Positions 1,331 through 15,230 of a DNA stretch of 16,370 bases are shown here, one piece after another; position 1 is the stretch's first letter; each line of letters starts with the position of its first letter. The notes beneath the pieces were generated by a model. That model did not search any database. It saw nothing but the letters and a program-made list of their open reading frames with translations, and had not been told where the DNA came from. This stretch comes from Paraprevotella sp. Its GTDB lineage: Bacteria; Bacteroidota; Bacteroidia; Bacteroidales; Bacteroidaceae. A program made the translations under genes and the position numbers. The stretch is taken from assembly GCA_021205005.1 (NCBI GenBank), contig JAJPYK010000144.1, forward strand, positions 1-16,370, read 5' to 3'.

Positions 1331-4269
1331 ATGAAAAAGCACTATCTTCAAACTCTTGTTACGGCCATGCTTGCATGGGGCTGTTGCGGTTTTCTTCCGG
1401 CTCAAGACCGGATAGACTTATCCGGTACCTGGGATTTCCAAACCGATCCCACGGAACAAGGGACATCCGGCAAATGGTACGAAAAGACCTTGCAGGACCG
1501 CATTTTACTCCCCGGCAGTATGCCTCAACGATTGAAAGGCGATCTTCCTTCAGTGAACACGCAGTGGACCGGTTCGATCTACGACAGCTCTTATTTCTAC
1601 AGCCCGTACATGGAGAAATACAGACGGACAGAGAAATTCAAGCTCCCTTTCTTCCTCACGCCCGACCGGCACTACGTTGGTACGGCATGGTACAAAAGAA
1701 CCATCGATATTCCGAACTCCTGGCAAGGCAGACGGGTCATTCTATTCCTCGAACGCCCGCACATCGAAACGGAACTATGGGTGAACGGAACGCATATAGG
1801 ATCCGACAATAGCTTGTGTGTACCTCACTGTTACGATTTGACAGACGTGATAAAAAAGGGAAAAAACACATTGGCCCTGCGCATCGGGAACTCCATCGAC
1901 AGCGTATGTGTAGGAGCCGACTCCCACAGCGTAACCGACCAGACACAAGGTAATTGGAACGGTATCGTGGGCCGCATGGAACTGCAAAGTACTCCTCTGC
2001 TTTACGTAGAAGACATACAAGTCTATCCTGACATTTACCGAAAAACAGCCACAGTCCGGCTCGTACTCAAACAACATCATCCCAAGGGAAATCCTTCGGC
2101 CGAAATCACCATCTCGGCCAAGAGTTTCAATACGGACTCCACGTATATTGTCCCTGCCGTAACCCGTCAAGTGACTTTGCAAAATGGGCAAACGGCAGTG
2201 GAAATGACCCTTCACATGGGGAATCAGGTACAACTGTGGGACGAATTTCATCCTGCCTTATACGAACTGACCACAGAAGTCCATTCAAAAGGCGGTACCG
2301 ATAAACAAGTGCGTACTTTCGGCATGCGCGAATTCAATATTATCGGAAAGATGTTCTACGTGAACGGACGCCTTACCCATCTGCGCGGCACTGTGGAAAA
2401 CTGCGACTTTCCCTTGACCGGATATGCTCCGATGGACGAAGCCTCATGGGAACGCGTATTCCGTATTTGCCGCCGCTACGGACTGAATCATATGCGTTTC
2501 CATTCATACTGTCCGCCGGAAGCCGCTTTCGAAGCTGCCGACCGCGTAGGTTTCTACTTGCAACCGGAAGGACCTAGCTGGCCCAACCACGGCGTGAAGT
2601 TAGGCAACGGTATGTACATCGACCGGTACCTGATGAGCGAAACCCAAAGAATGGATCAGGCATACGGCAATCATCCTTCGTTTTGCATGATGGCCTGCGG
2701 AAACGAACCGGCCGGAAACTGGGTTCCCTGGGTCAGCCGATTCGTGGACTATTGGAAGAAGACTGATAGCCGACATGTATACACCGGTGCTTCGGTCGGC
2801 GGCGGATGGGCTTGGCAACCCCGAAACATGTATCACGTAAAAGCCGGAGTGCGCGGGCTGGACGAATGGCGCCGCCATGCCCCGGAAAGCCAATACGACT
2901 TCCGCAATAAAATAGATACCGTAAGCGTTCCTTTCGTTTCCCACGAAACCGGACAGTGGTGCGCATTTCCCGATTTCGATGAGATAGACCGATATACAGG
3001 AGTGAACAAAGCCAAGAACCTTGAGATTTTCCGTGATCTACTGCACGATAATCACATGGGAGATCGGGCCCACAAGTTTATGATGGCCTCCGGAAAACTG
3101 CAAACCTTATGCTATAAACATGAAATCGAACGCATGCTTCGTACGCCGGAGTATGCCGGCTTCCAACTGTTGACCTTGAACGACTATTCCGGACAGGGAA
3201 CGGCCTTGGTGGGCGTAACCGATGTATTCTACAACGAAAAAGAATATTGTTCGCCCGAAGATTTTCGCGAATTCTGCTCTCCTACCGTCCTCTTGGCACG
3301 CATCCCCCGATTCACCTATTGGGACGATGAACCTTTCACGGCCTCTGTCGAAGTGGCCCATTACGGCCGGGCTCCTCTCCGCAACGCCGAAGTGACGTAT
3401 GTCATCAAAGACCGATACGACAAAATCTACGCCCGCGGCGTCTTGTGTCGCCGGGATCTCGGATTGGGCAACTGCATCCGTTTAGGCGACATTTCCGCCT
3501 TCACGCTCCAAGGGGCAGAGGCTCGACAACTGACGTTGGAAGTTCGTCTGAAAGGCACTTACGACCTTGACGGATCCCCCAGGAGATCCATAGCAAAAAT
3601 CATTGGAACTTTTGGGTATACCCCAAGGCCACGCGGCAAGAGTTGAACGCCATTAACACAAAAGACCTCTACATCACAGATTCCATGGCCGAAGAAGCCG
3701 AACGGACATTGAAACGCGGAGGACGGGTACTGGTGACTGCTGCCGGAAAGATCACTTACGGCAAAAACATCGTACAACAGTTTACGCCCGTATTTTGGAA
3801 TACAAGTTGGTTCAAGATGCGCCCGCCTCATACCACAGGCTTATATATCGAAAACGACCATCCGCTCTTCCGTAACTTCCCCACCGATTATTATAGCGAC
3901 ATGCAATGGTGGGACCTGGTAAATCTGAAACAAGTGATGTTATTCACGGATTTTCCCGCAGACTTCCAGCCCATCGTGCAAAGCATCGACACATGGTTCC
4001 TCAGCCGGAAAATCGGCATGTTGTTCGAAGCCAATGTCGCAGGCGGGCGACTGATGATGACCACCATGCCGCTGGACGCAGACGAGAATCATCCCGTAAG
4101 GGCGCAGATGCGCAAGGCTCTCATCGACTATATGCTCTCTGACGATTTCCGTCCGAAATATACCGTAGACCCGGCGCAAGTCCAGGAACTGTTCACCAAA
4201 GAAGCTCCTGCCGTGGACTTGTATACGCATGACTCTCCGGACGAACTGAAACCGAAAAACAAAAACTGA
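1331..4269 (+). pseudogene. Glycoside hydrolase family 2 enzyme, frameshifted
   Basis: This is a secreted GH2 enzyme of the beta-galactosidase/beta-glucuronidase superfamily. The start at 1331 gives a signal peptide (MKKHYLQ..., cleavage near LPAQ). Next come an N-terminal jelly-roll sugar-binding domain (GTAWYKR, LWVNGTHIG), an Ig-like domain and a TIM barrel. The proton donor is Glu459 in CGNEP and the likely nucleophile is Glu539 in SHETGQW. The first frame (1331-3646) ends with unrelated residues. From 3598 the family-typical NHWNFWVYP continues in the -1 frame to a TGA at 4267, giving a C-terminal domain (VVQQF-like, FWNTSWFKMRPPHTTG). The total of 2939 nt is one short of a multiple of three. 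The break lies within about 3574-3600, where there are runs of five C and five A; one extra A would restore the frame. Both catalytic residues are upstream of the break. The polysaccharide target is unknown; pairing with GH105 suggests pectin. Confidence 0.85.
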
Positions 4270-4306
4270 ATTCCGAAGAATAAAGATATAGACCGAAGAT
4301 GAACAT

Positions 4307-4351
4307 AAAAAATCGCTATGGCATCCCGACAGAGAAGCCATAGCGATTTTT
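4307..4351. terminator. Bidirectional intrinsic terminator between GH2 and the carboxylase operon
   Basis: A perfect stem of TCGCTATGGC (4313-4322) with GCCATAGCGA (4337-4346) is flanked by A6 on the left and T5 on the right, around a 14-nt loop. It can terminate the plus-strand GH2 unit (stop at 4269) and the minus-strand carboxylase operon (stop at 4381). Confidence 0.9.
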
Positions 4352-4380
4352 ATGTAATGTGAGACGACCTGACCGCCCCG

Positions 4381-5913
4381 TTACAAAGGCATGTTACCAT
4401 GCTTCTTGGGCGGATTGTTCTGGTTCTTGTTCCGCGCCATCTCCAAAGCATGGATCAATTTGGCCCGCGTATCGCGCGGCATGATCACTTCGTCCACCAG
4501 ACCGCGCTCGGCGGCACGATAAGGATTGGAAAACTCCTCTTCATAAGCCTCCACGGCTTTCTTCTTCTCCTCGTCCGAAGCCTTGCGATAGAGAATATTG
4601 ATGGCGCCCGAAGCTCCCATGACGGCAATTTCAGCCTGAGGCCATGCGAAGTTTACGTCGGCACCGATCATCTTGCTGGACATGACAATGTAAGCCCCGC
4701 CATAGGCCTTGCGGGTAATCAACGTAATCTTGGGCACCGTGGCCTCGGCATAAGCATATACGATCTTGGCCCCGTGACGGATAATGCCGTCGTGCTCCTG
4801 AGCCGTTCCGGGCCGAAATCCCGGCACATCCTCGAAAGTCACCAACGGGATGTTGAAACAATCGCAGAAACGAATGAAGCGGGCGGCCTTGTCGGACGCA
4901 TTGATATCGAGCACGCCGGCCAGGAACGCAGGCTGATTGGCGACGAAGCCTACCGTCTGACCGCCCAAACGGGCAAAGCCCACCACGATGTTCTTGGCAA
5001 AATGAGGCATCACCTCAAAGAAATACTGATCGTCCACCACCGGTTCTATCACGTCCTTGATGTCATACGGCTGATTAGGGTCCTCGGGCACTATGGTCTG
5101 CAAGCTTTCCACCCGCCGGTTGATGTCGTCGCTGCAAGGCACGATCGGCGCGTCTTCCATATTATTGGACGGCAGGAAACCGAGCAGCTCACGAATCTGC
5201 ATCAGCGTTTCCTCCTCCGTTGAATATATGAAATGGGCCACACCGCTCTTGCTGCTGTGCGTATAAGCCCCGCCCAACTCTTCCTTGTCCACCACTTCGT
5301 TCGTCACGGCCTTCACCACATCGGGACCGGTGATGAACATGTGACTTTTCTCATTCACCATGAAAATGAAATCTGTAAGCGCGGGAGAATAACATGCCCC
5401 TCCGGCACACGGACCGAGAATGACCGTCAGTTGGGGAATCACGCCCGAAGCCATCGTATTCTGATAATAGATAGAGGCATAACCGGCCAGACTGCTTACG
5501 CCTTCCTGAATGCGGGCGCCTCCGGACTCGTTCAGACCGATAATCGGTGCGCCGTTTTTCAAGGCCAGCGTCTGCACCTTGACGATCTTGGTCGCATTCG
5601 TCTCGCTCAACGAACCGCCATGCACGGTGAAGTCGTAGGCATATACAAAGACCTGGCGCCCGTCGATCTTGCCGTAACCGCATACCACGCCGTCACCCGG
5701 AATCTGCTTATTCTCCATCCCGAAACGATGGCAACGATGGTTCACGAACTTGTCCATCTCGCAGAACGTACCTTTGTCGAGCAGCATGTCGATGCGCTCG
5801 CGTGCCGTCATACGTCCCGAAGCGTGCTGTTTTTCCACCTTGTCCAAACCGCCGCCTTGCGAAGCCCGCCGGTCTAATTCCTCGAAACGGGCATATATTT
5901 CTTCTCTGTTCAT
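4381..5913 (-). CDS. Acyl-CoA carboxylase carboxyltransferase subunit (propionyl-CoA carboxylase beta / methylmalonyl-CoA decarboxylase alpha type)
   Basis: This 510-aa cytoplasmic carboxyltransferase moves CO2 between carboxybiotin and an acyl-CoA, most likely propionyl-CoA/methylmalonyl-CoA. Both crotonase-like halves are present. The N-terminal half has GGARIQEGVSSLAGYA and GGACYSPALTDF; the C-terminal half has NIPLVTFEDVPGFRPG, GGAYIVMSSK and AWPQAEIAVMG. Length fits the family and the frame is intact. The ATG (5913) overlaps the TGA of the upstream biotin carrier gene (ATGA), which implies translational coupling and a shared complex. It is the third gene of the accC / carrier / carboxyltransferase operon. 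The neighbouring biotin carboxylase gene argues for an ATP-dependent carboxylase. A sodium-pumping decarboxylase would instead be expected next to membrane subunits, and none are seen. Acetyl-CoA cannot be excluded as substrate. Confidence 0.9.
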   Translation of the reverse strand: MNREEIYARFEELDRRASQGGGLDKVEKQHASGRMTARERIDMLLDKGTFCEMDKFVNHRCHRFGMENKQIPGDGVVCGYGKIDGRQVFVYAYDFTVHGGSLSETNATKIVKVQTLALKNGAPIIGLNESGGARIQEGVSSLAGYASIYYQNTMASGVIPQLTVILGPCAGGACYSPALTDFIFMVNEKSHMFITGPDVVKAVTNEVVDKEELGGAYTHSSKSGVAHFIYSTEEETLMQIRELLGFLPSNNMEDAPIVPCSDDINRRVESLQTIVPEDPNQPYDIKDVIEPVVDDQYFFEVMPHFAKNIVVGFARLGGQTVGFVANQPAFLAGVLDINASDKAARFIRFCDCFNIPLVTFEDVPGFRPGTAQEHDGIIRHGAKIVYAYAEATVPKITLITRKAYGGAYIVMSSKMIGADVNFAWPQAEIAVMGASGAINILYRKASDEEKKKAVEAYEEEFSNPYRAAERGLVDEVIMPRDTRAKLIHALEMARNKNQNNPPKKHGNMPL

Positions 5914-6425
5914 TCTTCTGGTTTTAATTCTAATTCTATCAATGTCTGATTGTCTTGCACGGCATCGCCCTCGGCCACCAGGATGCGCTTCACCCGACAG
6001 TCGGAACTTACCTTATAATTACTTTGCATCTTCATGGCTTCCAGCACGACGGCTATGTCGCCGGCTTTCAGCTCGTCTCCTTCTTTCACCGGTATGCTCA
6101 CCACTTTTCCGGGCATGGGAGCCACAATCTTGTCGCCCTGCCGGTCGTCGGCGTTCTTCTTCATCCGGAGATATTTGGCCTGTGTATCCACCACATCCAC
6201 ATGATAAGAGCGGTGGAACATGTTCACGTCATAACTCTTTCCGGATTTTCCACGAATCAGCTCGGCATTATAAGAATTCCCGTCGTGCAGGATCGAACAA
6301 CTTCCGTTTTCGGCCATCACGAGATCGACCACACAAGGTTTCCCGTCGATGGTCAACTCCACACGATTGCCCTCTTTGTTGACCAGCGTCACGTCCGCCA
6401 CGCGGTCTCCGATATGTATTTCCAT
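5910..6425 (-). CDS. Biotin carboxyl carrier protein of acyl-CoA carboxylase
   Basis: This 171-aa protein carries biotin between the biotin carboxylase upstream and the carboxyltransferase downstream. The last ~75 residues form a biotinyl/lipoyl domain (IVAPMPGKVVSIPVKEGD) with the biotin-accepting Lys132 in EAMKMQ. The first ~95 residues are a beta-rich segment that probably docks to partner subunits, as in other Bacteroidales carriers of this size. The start codon is 21 bp after the accC stop, and its TGA overlaps the next gene's ATG. Frame and key residues are intact. Confidence 0.92.
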   Translation of the reverse strand: MEIHIGDRVADVTLVNKEGNRVELTIDGKPCVVDLVMAENGSCSILHDGNSYNAELIRGKSGKSYDVNMFHRSYHVDVVDTQAKYLRMKKNADDRQGDKIVAPMPGKVVSIPVKEGDELKAGDIAVVLEAMKMQSNYKVSSDCRVKRILVAEGDAVQDNQTLIELELKPEE

Positions 6426-6446
6426 AAAAAAACTCCTTCTTCTGAT

Positions 6447-7964
6447 TTAAATGCGTAAAACTCCTTTCTGCAAACCGAACTCGCGCCAGCGGCTGATCGG
6501 ACGGGAATCGGTAGTACGCACCGCCTTGTTCTCTTCCAAGTTGAACAGATAGTCCACGTAGGCCGCGATCATCGCCATGTTTTCGAGTTCTTCATTCTCA
6601 CCGTTGGAGCGTTGCAACGAACGCGAATACTTGGACAGGAACGAAGTGTCGTACTCCCCTTTTACAAAAGCCGGAGCGTACATGATGCGCCGCAGATAGC
6701 CGAGGTTGTTCTTCAATCCCGTAATCTTGAACTCATAAAGCACGCGGCGCATGCGTTCGATGGCGAACTGTCGGGTCGTGGGCCACACGATCAATTTACC
6801 TATCATAGGGTCGTAATACAAAGGAATTTCGTATCCTTCGTACACATAGCTGTCGAAGCGTACGCCGATGCCGTTCGGCTCCGTCAACTGACGGATCACG
6901 CCCGGAGAAGGCATGAAACCGTTTTCCGTATCTTCGGCACAAATGCGGCATTCTATGGCATGACCGCGCTGGTAGAGTTCGTCCTGACGCAGATGCAACA
7001 CCTCTCCCTGGGCCACGCGCAATTGCTCTTTCACAAGGTCTACGCCTACCACTTCCTCCGTAATGGGATGCTCCACCTGCAGACGGGTATTCATCTCGAG
7101 GAAATAAAAATGGCGGTATTTGTCCACCAGAAACTCGATGGTACCGGCACCGCGATAGTTCACGGCCCGGGCTGCAGCCACGGCTTTCTCGCCCATCTCC
7201 CGACGCAGTTCGGGCGTCAGGAAAGGCTACGGACTTTCCTCCACAATCTGTTGGTTGCGACGCTGCACGGAGCATTCGCGATCGAACAAATGGATCACGT
7301 TGCCATGAGCGTCTCCCAATATCTGAAACTCGATATGATGAGGCTCCTCCACGAACTTTTCCAGATAGACCGTGTCGTCTCCGAACGAGGACATCGACTC
7401 CGAACGGGCCGAATCATAAGCTTCCTTCACTTCGTCTTCGCTGTGGATAAGACGCATGCCTTTTCCGCCGCCGCCCATAGAGGCTTTCAGCATAACCGGA
7501 AATCCGATCTCCTTGCAAATGCGTAAAGCTTCATCGGCATCTTTCAACGGCTCTGCCGTACCCGGCACCACCGGAACGCCGGCGGCCATCATGCGTTTAC
7601 GGGCCGCAATCTTATCGCCCATGGCCTCCATCGTATCGGCCTCCGGACCGATGAATACGATGCCTTCCGCCTCGCAACGGCGCACGAAATCGGCATTCTC
7701 GGAAAGAAAACCGTAACCGGGATGAATGGCGTCGGCCCTGCATTTCAGGGCCACCTGAATGATTTTATCGATGTTCAAATAACTCTCGTGCGACTCCGAT
7801 GCGCCGATGCAATACGCTTCATCGGCATACATCACGTGTCTCGAAGCCCGGTCGGCTTCGGGAAATACGGCTACGGTACGCAGCCCCATCTCGCGGCACG
7901 AGCGCATAACCCGCACAGCGATCTCGCCACGATTGGCGATCAATACTTTTTTTATCATTTCCAA
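6447..7964 (-). pseudogene. accC: Biotin carboxylase (AccC-like) interrupted by an in-frame TAG
   Basis: This is the ATP-dependent biotin carboxylase subunit, first gene of the carboxylase operon. The start at 7964 (MEMIKKVLIANRGE; 7958 is also possible) leads into the biotin carboxylase N-domain. The ATP-grasp glycine loop (MGGGGKGMRL), CSVQRRNQQIVEESP, EMNTRLQVEHPITE and AIECRICAED follow. Codon 246 (7229 to 7227) is TAG. The same frame continues at once with PFLTPELRR, exactly the residues that follow in homologues, where Ser or Ala is usual. Overall length would be 505 aa, normal for Bacteroidales. Translation stopping at the TAG would give a 245-aa protein lacking the catalytic half, so it would be non-functional. 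A single change from TCG (Ser) would explain it. Alternatives are suppression or sequence error. A cobalamin riboswitch lies upstream. Confidence 0.88.
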
Positions 7965-8021
7965 AATACAATTTTCCTACATGTTCCCCTATCCCACGAG
8001 TAAGAACACCGTCTTCATATT

Positions 8022-8200
8022 GAAAGGAAGGTCTTCTGACTCAGCTCCTTTCTGAAACCTTCCCGACCGAATGTGAACAAGGCCAGTGGCTATGGTATTT
8101 TTCAGAAAGTTCACAAAGCATCACAGCAGCGGGACTGTCCGGGATTTACACCCGATTCCCTTTTAATCCGGGATACAAGAAGTTGTATACGGAACCTATT
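8022..8200 (-). ncRNA. Cobalamin riboswitch upstream of the biotin-dependent carboxylase operon
   Basis: The minus-strand leader contains the hallmarks of the cobalamin riboswitch class. These are the conserved core GGGAATCGGGTG / AAATCCCGGACAGTCCCGC / TGCTGTGATG (about 8161 to 8117), the GCCACTG segment (about 8091 to 8085), and the B12 box AGTCAGAAGACC (8041 to 8030). It lies between a good promoter (8238-8207) and the accC start (7964). The family senses adenosylcobalamin or related cobamides and usually lowers expression of the gene downstream. No clear terminator with a U-tract is visible between 8022 and 7964, so control is more likely at translation initiation. The edges given are approximate. 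Confidence 0.93.
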
Positions 8201-8206
8201 CTAGTG

Positions 8207-8238
8207 CAAAGATAGTCCTTTTTTCAGTTTCGGCCCAA
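8207..8238 (-). promoter_or_regulatory. Promoter of the riboswitch-carboxylase operon
   Basis: On the minus strand the -7 box is TATCTTTG (8214 to 8207), a full match to TAnnTTTG. A TTG (8238 to 8236) lies 21 bases upstream as a partial -33 box. Transcription would start just before the riboswitch. Confidence 0.65.
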
Positions 8239-8323
8239 CGCTTTCAAAAGAAATTTAATGACCGAAAGTAAATATAAGAGTAAGAATAATAAATTTCCCG
8301 TACAGAAAGGAAGAAGATATTTT

Positions 8324-8401
8324 TCCTGCGCCGAACGGAAAATCATTCTGCGGAGAAAAATATTTTTTTCTGCGCAGAAAAAAAACACATTCTGCGGAGA
8401 C
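8324..8401. repeat. Array of four TTCTGCGcAGAA-like motifs with exact 22-bp period
   Basis: Four 12-bp motifs start at 8324, 8346, 8368 and 8390: TCCTGCGCCGAA, TTCTGCGGAGAA, TTCTGCGCAGAA and TTCTGCGGAGAC. The invariant CTGCG recurs at 8326, 8348, 8370 and 8392, exactly every 22 bp. The third motif is a perfect palindrome that extends with its T and A flanks to 22 bp (8363-8384). Spacers are mostly A/T-rich. The array lies 86 bp or more upstream of the carboxylase promoter and beyond the aminotransferase terminator. It could be a set of helically phased operators or a degenerate intergenic repeat able to extrude hairpins. No gene is seen from 8239 to 8471. Confidence 0.7.
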
Positions 8402-8471
8402 GGATGCAACGGAAACCTAAGAAAAAGTTATATCGCTCATTTGTAATCAATTAACAAAAAATACACTAAAA

Positions 8472-8504
8472 AGGCTGTCCGTAATCAATAAAAACGGACA
8501 GCCT
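8472..8504 (-). terminator. Intrinsic terminator of the omega-amidase / iorAB / aminotransferase operon
   Basis: A perfect 11-bp stem (AGGCTGTCCGT at 8472-8482 with its complement at 8494-8504) surrounds an 11-nt loop. On the minus strand it is followed by TTTTAGTGTATTTTTTG. It lies about 20 bp after the aminotransferase stop codon. Confidence 0.88.
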
Positions 8505-8525
8505 GTAAGATACGGGATCATTTCG

Positions 8526-9848
8526 TTATTTCTCCAATGGATGGTCCAGACGAAAATTCCTCATCCTTTCCTCCATCACGGGATAAAGCTCTTCCCGCAT
8601 GCGCGACGTGCAGGCCCGTACTCCGTACTGCTCGCTCCCCGTCGTGGACAACGAAATGCTGCTTACGCCGTAGTAGAGCAACTCGCGCAACAAATCGCCG
8701 CCGTCCATCTGGCCATAGCCGATGGTAAAGAAGAAACCGTCGCCCACCGGACGGGTCACATCGTAGTCGTAAACAATATGGAAACCGTTGTCGGTGAATA
8801 TCTTTTTCATCCGCTCGGCCCGTCGGGCATATTCTCTCACGTCGGCCGCAAAATCCAACATACCGTCTGAAGAGGCTTTCAACATCTCGGCATAACCGTA
8901 CTGCGTGGAAGCGATACACCCCGAAGTGATCATGTAGAGCACCGAAGCCTCGAAAGTCTGTCCGAACATGCCGGAATCGCCGTAACGTGCAGCCAGAGCC
9001 GGAAAATGCGTATCAAACAGTTTGTCGGACACACAAGCTACGGCGATGCGCTGCCCAGCATAGCTGAAGATCTTGGATGAGGACAGCATGAGGATATACC
9101 GGTCCGTATAGCGGGCCACCGTAGGCGGATAAGGCGGTTGCCAGGGATGGCCCAGGTCCTGACGGAAATCCATGCAGAAGTAGGCCATATTTTCAAGCAC
9201 GACGGCATCGTAACGGTCGGCCAGTTCGCCGATGATCTTCAGTTCGCTGTCTTCCAAACAGATCCAGGCCGGATTGTTGGGATTGGAATACACGATGGCC
9301 GCAATATCCCCCCGGCACAAGTAACTTTCCAGCTTATCCCGCAAAGCCTCTCCGCGATAGCGGTAAATGTAGAACTGTTCCCAGCGCGCACCGATGATGC
9401 GCAGTTGCGACTTCTGAATGGGGAAACCGGGATCGATGAACAGCACCTTGTCCTTGCCGGGACGACATTGGGTACAGACCACAAATGCCCCGAAAGAGGC
9501 GGCCACCGAACCGGTGGTGGGAATACAGGAACGCGGCGTGATGTCCACATTCACAAAGGCTTTCACGAAACGGGACGCCTCGCGCTTCAATTCGGGAATG
9601 CCGTCGGCCGCAGGATATTGCGCCCCCACCCCGCGATCCAGCGCAACTTTTTCGGCCTCCACGCCTACCCTGTTGACCGGCAGCCCCGGAGAGCCTTGGT
9701 CCATGCGGATAAAGGGAATACCGGTGAGCTGTTCCAGACGGGAAGCCACCAACAACACCTCTCCGATAGTGGCATGGGCCAGATCGGCAATGTGCAGTTC
9801 CTGCACGACGGAAGCCACCAACTCTTCGCTAAATACCTGATGTTTCAT
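8526..9848 (-). CDS. Class I/II PLP-dependent aminotransferase
   Basis: This 440-aa cytoplasmic fold-type I aminotransferase probably interconverts an aromatic or related amino acid and its 2-oxo acid, given its neighbours. The family pattern is clear: a substrate loop with QGSPGLP, YPAADGIPELK, a TTGSVAASFGAF cofactor-phosphate region, and YSNPNNPAW (the NPNNP signature around residue 190). Also present are ENMAY (Tyr223), and SSSKIFSYAGQR with the Schiff-base Lys259 and the phosphate-binding Arg267. C-terminal TTGSEQYGVRACTSR fits the substrate-binding region. The frame is intact, unlike the three genes upstream of it in the operon. It starts 4 bp after the iorB stop codon, so it is likely translationally linked to IorB. 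Substrate and amino donor cannot be read from sequence. Confidence 0.9.
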   Translation of the reverse strand: MKHQVFSEELVASVVQELHIADLAHATIGEVLLVASRLEQLTGIPFIRMDQGSPGLPVNRVGVEAEKVALDRGVGAQYPAADGIPELKREASRFVKAFVNVDITPRSCIPTTGSVAASFGAFVVCTQCRPGKDKVLFIDPGFPIQKSQLRIIGARWEQFYIYRYRGEALRDKLESYLCRGDIAAIVYSNPNNPAWICLEDSELKIIGELADRYDAVVLENMAYFCMDFRQDLGHPWQPPYPPTVARYTDRYILMLSSSKIFSYAGQRIAVACVSDKLFDTHFPALAARYGDSGMFGQTFEASVLYMITSGCIASTQYGYAEMLKASSDGMLDFAADVREYARRAERMKKIFTDNGFHIVYDYDVTRPVGDGFFFTIGYGQMDGGDLLRELLYYGVSSISLSTTGSEQYGVRACTSRMREELYPVMEERMRNFRLDHPLEK

Positions 9849-9852
9849 CGTC

Positions 9853-10438
9853 TTATGCTTTTACTTCGGCCGCGGCATGACCGATGTCGAATGCCTTACG
9901 GTTCATTTCTACCACGGCCTCTCCTTTCGATCCGAACACCCGGGCGATACTCTCGCGCAACTGTGTCACAGAAAGGATACTCAGGAACCGTGCAGCCGCT
10001 CCCAACAAAATCACGTTGGCGCATTTCGGCAGGGCATGCTCCCGCGCCAAAGCCTCCGTATCGATACATACCACATGGGGCAAAGCGCGCAAATCCGCAC
10101 GCAAAGCCTGCTCTTCAGGATAATCGGGGATGTTTTTAAAAGGCGAGGAAGAAGTTTATCACCCACCCGTCGCGGTTCAAATACGTAACGTAACGCAGGG
10201 CTTCCATCGGCTCTAACGAAAGAATCATGTCGGCTGTGCCGACAGCTATCAGGTCGGAAGCGATAGGACGGTCGGACAGACGCAGGTTGGACTGCACCTC
10301 GCCTCCGCGCTGGCTCATGCCGTACACCTCGGCTTGTTTCAGATCCAGACCGGCTTGTGTGGCGGCCTCGCCGATAATGGTGGCGATGGACAGGATGCCC
10401 TGTCCGCCCACCCCCGAAAGGATAATATCTTGTTTCAT
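9853..10438 (-). pseudogene. iorB: Indolepyruvate ferredoxin oxidoreductase beta subunit, frameshifted
   Basis: This is the gamma-domain-type subunit of 2-oxoacid:ferredoxin oxidoreductase, partner of the IorA encoded just upstream; together they convert aryl-pyruvates to arylacetyl-CoA. The start ATG at 10438 overlaps the iorA TGA (ATGA). The N-terminal half is typical (MKQDIILSGVGGQGILS, GMSQRGGEVQSNLRL). Near residue 95 the frame is lost. The reading frame ends at 10136, while the expected continuation (SSPFKNIPDYPEEQALRADL) runs in another frame to a TAA at 9853. The gene is 586 nt, one more than a multiple of three. Removing one T from the AACTTCTTCC stretch (about 10147-10156) restores a 195-aa protein, the usual family length. 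It is either a decayed gene or a sequence error. Confidence 0.88.
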
Positions 10439-12048
10439 GCTTTTTTTTCTGTTTTTCTCTGTTTTGATTTCCGGTTCAGGGTCTGGATGCACTCCCTTCG
10501 GGGAATGATGACCGAGACGCCTTTATACTCGATCTCTTCACGGATCGTGTGCGTGATTTCCGCCATGTTACCGGGCAAAGGCACCACCACACGCACATGT
10601 TCTGGCTCCACTCCCAGCCCGAGACAGATAGCCTCGAACTTGTTCGTGCCGGCCGAATCCTGTCCGCCCGTCATGGCCGTGGTCAGATTGTCGGAAAGAA
10701 TCACAGTGACCGGTGCACGGTCATTCACGGCATCCAGCAATCCCGTCATACCCGAATGGGTGAACGTGGAATCGCCGATCACGGCTATGGCCGGAAAGAC
10801 GCCGGCGTCGGCCGCTCCCTTGGCCATCGTGATGGAAGCTCCCATGTCGAGACAAGTGTCTATGGCCCTGAACGGAGGCAAGGCTCCGAGCGTGTAACAG
10901 CCGATGTCGGCAAAGACACGTGCATCCGGATACGATTTCACCACCTCGTTCAAGGCCGTATAAACGTCCCGATGACCACACCCCTTGCACAAGGCGGGCG
11001 GGCGTCCCACCACGCTCTTCGGCACCTCGAAATAACGTTCAGGCCGATGTCCCATGGCTTCGGCCACACGGTCGGGCGTCAAATCTCCGGTACGCGGAAG
11101 ATCTCCCGTCAACCGCCCCTTGACCGGATAACCGGCCGACACGATGCCGTGCACGATTTCCTCGGCAAAAGGTTGTCCGTCCTCCACGACCAGAATCTCA
11201 CAGCTCTCTTCCGCCAACTTCCGCACCCGGTCGGCCGGCTACGGATATTGGCTTACCTTTAATATATTGTATGCGCCTCCGTCCCCTTTCGCGTCGGACA
11301 CGTAGTTATAGCCGATACCGCAAGCCAGAATCCCTACGGGACGCGACGAACGGGCCGGCTCGTAACGGGTATAAGGCGAGCATGACGCCAATTGCTCCAG
11401 ATGTGCCTGACACTCCACCAACGCCGCATACTTGCGACGCGAATGCGCCGGAAGCAAGACCCAACCGGCCGGATTTTTCACACAAGGCAGCACCCGCACG
11501 TCCTCCGCCTCGTCTTTCACCTCCACGGCAGCGCTGGAATGGGCCAGACGCATCACGACGCGCATCAACACCGGCAACCGTTCGCGCTCGGACAGTTCAT
11601 AGCCGTATGACATCATGTCGTAGGCCTCCTGCTGCGTGGAAGGCTCCAGCGTGACGACTAATGCAAACTTACCGTAGAAACGGGAGTCCTGTTCGTTTTG
11701 GGAAGAATGCATGGAGGGGTCGTCGGCCACGACCACGACCATACCTCCGTTCACTCCCGTAATCGCGGAATTGACGAAAGCATCGGCCGCCACGTTCAGT
11801 CCCACATGCTTCATGCAGACCAGCGAACGCGCTCCGGCGTAAGACATACCCAAAGCAGCTTCCACAGCCGTCTTCTCGTTCGTACACCACGAGGTGTGCA
11901 GATGTCGTTCGCGGGCCAGAGGATGCCGCTGGATATACTCGGTGATTTCAGTGCTCGGCGTACCGGGATAGGCGTACACTCCGCGAATGCCGGCATGGAT
12001 AGCCCCCAAAGCAATCGCCTCATCGCCCAATAAAAGTCTTTTTTTCAT
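10435..12048 (-). pseudogene. iorA: Indolepyruvate ferredoxin oxidoreductase alpha subunit, interrupted by an in-frame TAG
   Basis: This thiamine-diphosphate subunit oxidatively decarboxylates indolepyruvate and other aryl-pyruvates (or carboxylates arylacetyl-CoA in reverse). The start at 12048 (MKKRLLLGDEAIALG) is preferred over 12063. The N-terminal pyrimidine-binding domain shows AYPGTPSTEI, NEKTAVEAALG and DDPSMHSSQNEQDSR. The C-terminal thiamine-diphosphate domain shows LCKGCGHRDVY, GDSTFTHSGMTG and DNLTTAMTGGQ. Codon 270 (11241 to 11239) is TAG in SQYP-stop-PADRVRKL. The frame continues without loss; related enzymes usually have a hydrophobic residue there, and TTG to TAG is one change. 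Only Cys residues unrelated to a ferredoxin follow the last domain, so the C-terminal 2[4Fe-4S] domain of archaeal IorA is absent. At 537 codons plus stop, this appears normal for the short form in Bacteroidales. The stop overlaps iorB. Confidence 0.88.
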
Positions 12049-12063
12049 GGAATTGATGTGCAT

Positions 12064-12828
12064 TTAAATAGATAAAGTAAAACGGTCGGCATCGTCCAGC
12101 ACGGGGAACTTCTGACGAAACTCATCCAGCCCCGCCCGGTCCGTTTCCACCGTCACGGCGCCGACCTTTCCCGGCTCACAAGCCGCCATAGTCCGCCCGT
12201 AAGGATCTATCATCAGCGTACCGCCGTTGTATTCACAGGCCGGATCATGCCCCACACTGTTCACTCCGGCCACATAACACTGGTTTTCGATGGCCCTCGC
12301 CCGCAGCAAAGCCAGCCAGGCATCCAGTCTCGACGTCGGCCAACTGGCCACGTACAGGGCCAGATCGTAATCCTTCAGATTACGCGACCACACGGGAAAG
12401 CGCAGGTCGTAACAGATTTGCAAAAGGATGCGCATGCCCATATACTCCACTACCGTGCGCTGCCGCCCCGCCGTGAAATGCGCATGCTCGCCCCCGTAAG
12501 TAAACAGATGTTTCTTGTCATACGTCCGGAAAGTCTCGTCTGGGTAGACAATATAGAACCGATTGTAGTAACGGCCTTCGTCCCGAACGGCGATACTGCC
12601 GGCCACGGCACATCGGTGTGCCGAGGCTTAACGGCGCATCTTCTGTAAAGTCTCGCTTTCGGCTTCCTCGGCCATCCCCTCGGGCTCCGTACAAAAGCCG
12701 GTAGAGAATATCTCGGGCAGTACATAAAGATCGGAACCCGGACAGGAATCCATCGCACGCTCGGCCGCCGCCATGTTCTCCCTCGGGTTTCCCCAGACAA
12801 TATCTTGCTGCAAAAGTGTTATTTTCAT
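12064..12828 (-). pseudogene. Omega-amidase of the nitrilase family (YafV/NIT2-like), interrupted by an in-frame TAA
   Basis: It resembles E. coli YafV (a 2-oxoglutaramate amidase) along its whole length. Such enzymes hydrolyse the omega-amide of 2-oxo acids formed by glutamine or asparagine transamination. The Glu-Lys-Cys triad is visible as Glu39 (LPEIFSTGF), Lys105 (YDKKHLF) and Cys139 (ICYDLRFPVWSR). ALYVASWP, RAIENQCYVAG and GGTLMIDPYG also fit. Codon 67 (12630 to 12628) is TAA, between QKMRR and ASAHRCAVAGS, with the frame unbroken on both sides. Total length is 254 codons plus stop, matching the 256-aa YafV. Translation stopping there would remove two of the three catalytic residues. 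It is the first gene of the operon, and its TAA stop lies 15 bp before the preferred iorA start. Confidence 0.88.
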
Positions 12829-12851
12829 ATATTATTTATATTAGGCCGCAA

Positions 12852-12859
12852 CAAAGTTA
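12852..12859 (-). promoter_or_regulatory. -7 promoter element of the omega-amidase / iorAB operon
   Basis: On the minus strand TAACTTTG (12859 to 12852) fully matches TAnnTTTG, 24 bp before the omega-amidase ATG. No clear TTTG is present at the expected -33 distance. It lies downstream of the GH95 terminator on the same strand, which supports an independent transcript. Confidence 0.5.
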
Positions 12860-12913
12860 ATGAAATAAAACAAGAGCAGGGTATTTTCTTATAAACTATT
12901 TTTCGCCGGAACA

Positions 12914-12960
12914 TAAAAAAAGACCGTTGCGGCATTCTCCTTCCGAATCGCCGCAACGGT
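12914..12960 (-). terminator. Intrinsic terminator of the GH95 gene
   Basis: A perfect 11-bp stem (ACCGTTGCGGC at 12923-12933 with its complement at 12950-12960) surrounds a 16-nt loop. On the minus strand it is followed by CTTTTTTTATG. It is 30 bp after the GH95 stop codon. Confidence 0.88.
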
Positions 12961-12989
12961 TCATCCCGATTTCTCCTCACACGGGGAGA

Positions 12990-15230
12990 TCACTCCCAAC
13001 AAAGCCGGTAACACTGACCGCGCCGGGTGGAAAACGTCACTGTTCCGTCCGGCCCATATACGACCTCCACACGGCCTCCCCTTCTTTTTCGGATTTTGAC
13101 ATCCTCCTGTTGCGGCAGATAAAGCCGGCAATCTTGTCCGCCATCGGAATACAGACAGACCTCTTTCAGCTTGCCGTCTTGCCAGGCCACATCAAAAGTG
13201 AAACCGCCTTCGGCCCTCAATCCCTTGAAAGATCCGCTCTTCCAGGCAGAAGGCAGAGCCGGAAGCAAATATATTCCCTTCACCGTATTCTGCAACAACA
13301 TCTCGGCGATGCCTGCCGTGGCTCCGAAGTTCCCGTCGATCTGAAAAGAAGGATGGGCACAAAACAAGTTTTCATAAATACCGCCGGCATTGTCGTCCAT
13401 GCTGACCACGGTCACATCCGTAAGGTGCTGCGCTTGCTTCAACAGACGGTAGGCACGGTCGCCGTCCCACAATCGCGCCCAACAGGCTATCTTCCATGCC
13501 CGGCTCCAGCCCGTAGCCCCGTCTCCGCGGGAGTTCAAGGACACTTTGGCGGCATCGGCGTAACGCGGATCCTGCAAATAGGAAATCTGACGGCAGGAAT
13601 ACAAGGCCATCAAATGGGAAAGGTGCCGCTGATGATTGCCTTGTTCGTCTTCCTGCACGGTCCATTCCTTGATTTGCCCCCACGAACCGATATGCAGACC
13701 GTTGTCCAACGAAGCGAATCTGTTATGCAGTTCCTCCACGAAAGCGTCTTGCACATGCAAGACTTCGGATGCTTTCAACGTAACGTCGAACAGGGCGTAA
13801 ATCAGTTGCTGGGCATAGGCCACGCCGTCCTCCCAAGGCCCGTGTTCGGGCGACCATTCGTCGGGAGCCACCCATTTTCCTTCGGCGTTCTTTTTCAGAC
13901 GGTCGAACCAAAACTCACAAGTCGACTTCATTACAGGATAAGCCGTGGTGCGCAAATAATCCTGATCCAACGTATAAGCATAGTGCTGCCACAAATGGGT
14001 GCAGTACCAGGCATTGGCCGGACGATTGATGAGCCAATCCGTATATCCGAAAATATTGTTTTGCGTATGAAGGGCCCAACCGCGACAATTCTCCTTCCGT
14101 GCCACCTGCTGCCAGGAGCCGTCCGGCTTCATGGCCTCGGTCTGCACGTAACGGATAAAAGGTTCGTAACAGTCCGACAAATTAGTCACTTCGGCCGGCC
14201 TGTAGTTCATCTGCACATTGATGTTACTGTGGTAATCGCATTCCCATGCCGGATTGTTCACGTTGTTCCACAGTCCCTGCAGATTGCTTGGCAACTGGCC
14301 TCCGCGTGAAGAGCCGAGCCTCAGATAACGGCCATATTGGAATTACAACATCTCGAGATAAGCATTGTCCGGATGTTCGCGAATGAGTACATCCGTAGGA
14401 TAATCGGGAAGTCCCGCGCCAAGATCCAACTCCACACGGGCAAAAAGCGGACGATAGTCGGAAAGATGGTCAGCCTTGAGCTTCTTGTACGATTTCCCAG
14501 ACACGCGCTTCAAACGAGCCGCCAGCCGTTCGTGTATCTGTCGGGCATCGCCCTGCGTATACGTCGGCGAACCCAGATCGAAATTCGTACTTCCGGTCAA
14601 AATGACCGTCACGGCATCTGCCCCGCGCACGTTCAGACGATCGGAAGTCGACTCCACAGTCCCGCCTTCGGCCTGCAAGACCGCCTGCGCCTCATAAGAC
14701 AACAAGTCCAGCCGACCCTTTATCGTCATTGTACGCCCCTCTACTTTCGTGACGCCCTGCCGCCCGTCCTGCATCCTCACCGAAAAGTTCAGTTTACCTT
14801 TGTGTCCGGGCGTAGTCAACCGCATCACGATCACACTGTCGGGATTACTGGCAAAATATTCCCGCAAATAGTCTATCCCGCCGATCGTATACGACACCCG
14901 TCCGACAGCGTCGTCCAGAACCAATTCCCGCTCATATCGGGTACAAGTATCCGGTGTGTCGAAATCGAAAAACAGATCGCCCATATTCTGGTATGATCCG
15001 CGCTGCGTCGTACTGCCCGACCACCATGTTTTATCGTTAAACTGCAACTGTTCGTGCGCCACACCTCCGAAGAACATGGCTCCGATTCCTCCGTTACCGA
15101 TCGGCAAAGCCGACGTCATCCAGACCTTTGCCGGTCGGTCATACCAAAGTTTCATCGGCACTCTCGCCGCATTCACCGCCAGCCCGCAACAGACAAAGGC
15201 CCATCCCAAAAAGCATTTTCGCAAATTCAC
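12990..15230 (-). pseudogene. Glycoside hydrolase family 95 (alpha-L-fucosidase / alpha-L-galactosidase), interrupted by an in-frame TAA
   Basis: This is a secreted GH95 enzyme that cleaves alpha-1,2-L-fucose, or in some plant-cell-wall members alpha-L-galactose. It has a signal peptide (cleavage near AVNA/ARVPM), the N-terminal beta-domain starting LWYDRPAKVWMTSALPIGNG, then the (alpha/alpha)6 barrel. Catalytic-region motifs are SNINVQMNY (Asn336/338), WSPEHG (Glu462), HLSHLMALY and DGNFGATAGIAEML (Asp632). Codon 296 (14345 to 14343) is TAA within LEML-stop-FQYGRYL. Tyr is expected there, so TAT or TAC to TAA explains it. The frame is otherwise continuous for 746 codons including the TAA. 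Two further oddities are MNYRPAE, where Trp is usual instead of Arg, and a short SSRGGQLPSNLQG segment. It is transcribed alone, with its own terminator. Stopping at the TAA would remove the whole catalytic barrel. Confidence 0.87.

Follow-up and report, generated by a model that had tools for sequence, protein, structure and literature searches.

A stretch of DNA from an uncultured Paraprevotella species raises the question of whether the broken genes it appears to carry are broken in the organism or in its draft sequence. The window, meaning the whole stretch of 16,370 nucleotides, is contig 242 of 305 in a fragmented, metagenome-type assembly of 2,294,291 bases (called G000 here; 82.27% complete, 0.27% contaminated), and it has no N gaps. 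It holds eleven complete genes: GH88, GH2, pccB, bccp, accC, an aminotransferase, iorB, iorA, an amidase, GH95 and an OMP-like gene. Six of the eleven are broken, and it is very likely that all six breaks are base-level errors of the assembly. A search of the literature returned nothing usable on the question, and the argument below is built from comparisons of sequences.

The broken genes of the window

The six broken genes, together with two unbroken neighbours that were used for counting missense changes, are as follows.

1331..4269, forward strand: GH2 glycoside hydrolase with Pfam GH2 domains; frameshift near 3577-3584
4381..5913, reverse strand: pccB, carboxyl transferase (Pfam Carboxyl_trans); unbroken, used for the missense count
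5910..6425, reverse strand: bccp, biotin carrier protein (Pfam Biotin_lipoyl); unbroken, used for the missense count
6447..7964, reverse strand: accC, biotin carboxylase; TAG at 7227-7229, with a single frame spanning the stop
9853..10438, reverse strand: iorB; frameshift near 10155-10157, with Pfam POR on the downstream piece
10435..12063, reverse strand: iorA; TAG at 11239-11241, with a single frame spanning the stop
12064..12828, reverse strand: nitrilase-type amidase; TAA at 12628-12630, with Pfam CN_hydrolase on both pieces and a single frame spanning the stop
12990..15230, reverse strand: GH95; TAA at 14343-14345, with Pfam GH95 and GH65N_2 on the two pieces and a single frame spanning the stop

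An earlier note on this DNA had described six broken genes among eleven, four of them cut by in-frame stops, and the frames, the Pfam domains and the open homologues confirmed this. The GH2 homologue of the related genome G001 can be aligned in frame +2 as far as 3628, and in frame +1 from 3580 onwards; the alignment of iorB with its homologue in G002, another relative, is split over two frames. The two pieces of accC together carry Biotin_carb_N, CPSase_L_D2 and Biotin_carb_C, and those of iorA carry POR_N and TPP_enzyme_C. Open homologues were found for all six genes: in G001 for GH2, in G002 for iorB and the amidase, and in homologue listings for accC, GH95 and iorA. The best listed homologue is 92% identical for accC and 78% for GH95. 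For the intact pccB the best named locus is that of P. xylaniphila, at 93% identity, and the genus is taken as Paraprevotella on this ground. A search of the assembly for a further copy of the accC site yielded none, nor did a second genome of the same species turn up among 18 genomes of the genus.

Three side observations concern these genes. A cobalamin riboswitch (Rfam RF00174, 92.6 bits) lies at 8009-8214 on the reverse strand, directly upstream of accC, a position that would suit a B12-dependent propionyl-CoA/methylmalonyl-CoA pathway for accC-bccp-pccB. The carboxylase is patchy in the genus: a full-length accC occurs in 9 of 18 genomes, and three genomes with a completeness of 96-99% lack one. 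One homologue of iorA, P0241 (663 aa), has its TPP-binding part repeated internally, which is possibly another assembly fault.

Breaks elsewhere in the assembly

Very recent decay would mean that this lineage no longer needed the six genes, and that they were inactivated while their neighbours stayed intact. The position of the breaks, inside a gap-free contig and away from dense bursts of mismatches, is as this reading expects, and so is accC, which the counts above show to be dispensable in the genus. The breaks also resemble recently decayed pseudogenes in being few and in lying in otherwise conserved genes. Decay further expects breaks to be confined to dispensable genes, and this is not so: essential-type genes are broken in G000 as well, which sets the case apart from recent-decay pseudogenes.

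Nine essential-type genes were checked, and four of them (rpoD, valS, alaS and a gyrA-like gene) are broken, against six of eleven genes in the window. The other five have open frames like those of the relatives; these are presumably ileS-, leuS-, metG-, parC- and topA-like genes, the names having been assigned by family and gene length. The gene accC was not counted among the nine; it had been considered as an essential gene and was dropped, with a full-length match in only half of the genomes of the genus.

The four broken genes differ in how they are broken. The only match to rpoD in G000 carries a TAG and reaches the end of its contig. It has 9 mismatches to G001 over 249 codons, and 5 of these, among them the stop, are crowded into the final 24. 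A TAA interrupts the gyrA-like gene at codon 53 of its contig. The 18 genomes of the genus gave 35 matches of this family; no other copy contains a stop, though one (in G007) has a shorter open frame. In valS, a 10-N gap is preceded by a TGA and a TAA. A 30-base sequence stands on both sides of this gap, its two copies differing at 9 positions by a count made by eye; the copy before the gap holds a stop, while the one after it reads normally. The frame of alaS shifts where there is no N gap, and the 31 codons before the shift hold 10 mismatches to G002, against 40 in the preceding 498. Three of these four genes are broken at a contig end or a scaffold gap, and two within dense mismatch bursts. 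Since rpoD, valS and alaS are indispensable to a living cell and yet are broken, such errors must be common in the assembly; and since essential genes are broken in like manner, the breaks of the window are most likely errors of the draft sequence too. Decay cannot account for any of the four.

Sets of proteins from the two relatives were also compared with G000. Those of G001 (47 genes) gave 22 flagged stops and 5 flagged frame changes, and those of G002 (78 genes) gave 6 of each. These were sorted by eye. The stops kept were those of accC, iorA and rpoD, together with one in an ABC-F gene (C172) and one in a gene of C127; every other stop flagged in G000 was attributed to an ORF in the wrong frame, an over-long start or the edge of a run of N. 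The frame changes kept were those of GH2, iorB and the genes on C172 and C127, the last two of which thus have one stop and one frameshift each; the rows dropped were three at the N gaps of C64, one in a match of 63% identity and one in a doubtful ORF. As a control, G001 and G002 were compared with each other in both directions, and no frame change appeared in 91 and 69 gene comparisons. The control flagged 11 stops in each direction; on inspection by eye these were put down to ORFs in a wrong frame or to over-long starts.

The breaks are not spread evenly. No internal stop was found in 38 ABC-domain matches of G000, so the rate of breaks must vary across the assembly. Two ABC-F genes lie in two frames, that on C172 by a frameshift and that on C64 across an N gap, and the latter was not counted. 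The lengths of ORFs in 14 sampled stretches did not separate G000 from its relatives. Errors gather at ends, gaps and joins in rpoD, valS, alaS and the gyrA-like gene, but this was not seen at the breaks of the window, C172 or C127, and no dense mismatch burst like those of rpoD, valS and alaS was seen beside the window breaks in alignments judged by eye.

Missense load around the stops

The earlier note had held that nonsense changes dominate with no matching load of missense changes, and that catalytic motifs are almost untouched; neither claim survived counting. A random coding substitution in the window has a 4.2% chance of creating a stop, and four stops therefore imply substitution at about 0.63% (95% range 0.17-1.6%). 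At this rate roughly 94 changes would be expected in the window, 69 of them missense. The load was measured over pccB, bccp and accC, in 434 columns at which the other 25 loci all agree. In these columns the window copy is changed 6 times, once by the stop of accC, where 6.4 changes were predicted. The four nearest relatives, pooled, have 2 changes in 1714 columns (Fisher p about 0.001 against 6/434). The missense load is present, and it is of the size predicted from the stops.

Taken separately, pccB has 2 private changes in 203 invariant columns and bccp none in 18. In accC, 272 columns have a conservation of at least 97%, and they contain 4 changes, the stop among them, where 4.0 were predicted; in the same columns the 12 best-scoring homologues have 0-1 changes, and more distant ones up to 24. 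One of the changes in accC lies seven codons before the stop, in the column of residue 238 of E. coli biotin carboxylase (counted from the alignment), which we take to be the catalytic lysine. The best homologues of GH95 are merely 78% identical, and its 16 private changes were therefore left out of the missense argument.

By itself, an excess of private changes could also come from relaxed selection or from a longer branch. Two observations count against decay of the window genes in particular. The unbroken pccB also has private changes at invariant columns, and a missense load shared with unbroken neighbours is unlike recently decayed pseudogenes. The excess of radical changes also extends beyond the window: outside it, the radical share of private changes is 174/1320 in G000, against 85/957 in G001 and 115/1196 in G002. 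Within the window the radical share (7/72 against 5/130) was not significant (p 0.12). Taken with the broken essential-type genes, this makes recent decay of all six genes very unlikely.

A narrower claim is that most of the breaks are errors while one or two are genuine in the species, accC first. The patchiness of accC in the genus favours this, and errors and true losses are compatible with each other in one genome. On the other side, accC cannot be told apart from the error-ridden genes elsewhere in the assembly, and its number of changes equals the random prediction. Such a mixture is unlikely. Still less probable is its most specific form, in which the lineage would truly be losing its biotin-dependent acyl-CoA carboxylase, with both the stop in accC and the altered residue in the column of the catalytic lysine being genuine, on top of unrelated assembly errors.

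Recoding, sequence context and the origin of the breaks

Partial recoding or programmed readthrough, in which the stops would be read as amino acids, was the third explanation to be weighed. It is consistent with each stop being crossed by a single frame. The stops, however, are of every kind, TAA and TAG in the window and TGA in valS, and opposite the four window stops the relatives have three different residues. Frameshifts accompany the stops, and in 17 related genomes of the genus the gyrA-like gene is free of stops. A search of the window and 25 stretches of G000, about 12% of the bases of the genome, turned up no suppressor tRNA. Recoding is rejected, its probability being close to nil.

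A systematic error tied to sequence context was also considered. GGC on the forward strand precedes the base presumed to be changed at three of the four window stops (7227-7229, 11239-11241 and 12628-12630). When every private change of the sampled genes was counted, the rate of change after GGC and elsewhere was 39/587 and 1482/18052 at first codon positions, 16/368 and 788/19345 at second positions, and 238/619 and 3964/10869 at third positions. There was no clear rise, and the idea was dropped.

Base errors in draft and metagenome-assembled genomes yield spurious pseudogenes. The breaks described here are like these: conserved genes, some of them essential, are hit by in-frame stops and one-base shifts, often at contig ends and gaps. 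They differ in that the stop-making substitutions of the window outnumber the shifts and lie inside a gap-free contig. The contigs come in order of length and there are 10-N gaps among them, from which we infer that the underlying data are short reads. Poorly supported stretches, contig ends and joins would carry random substitutions, at about 0.6% in the window, and some of these would turn codons into stops, while occasional one-base insertions or deletions would add the frameshifts. Low read support is the presumed cause of the errors. Each of the six sites is probably an error in its own right, accC being the site for which this is least secure. Of the three options in the earlier note, a poor assembly is the one supported, essential genes being broken in the same manner, and recent decay and recoding are not.

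These findings are a warning and not a discovery. Counts of pseudogenes, tests of stop-codon use and metabolic predictions made from this assembly would be wrong, although its scores for completeness and contamination look acceptable. Two cheap checks that need no reads are whether essential genes are broken too, and whether the missense load matches the stops. For the Paraprevotella species itself, the six genes are very probably intact in the living cells.
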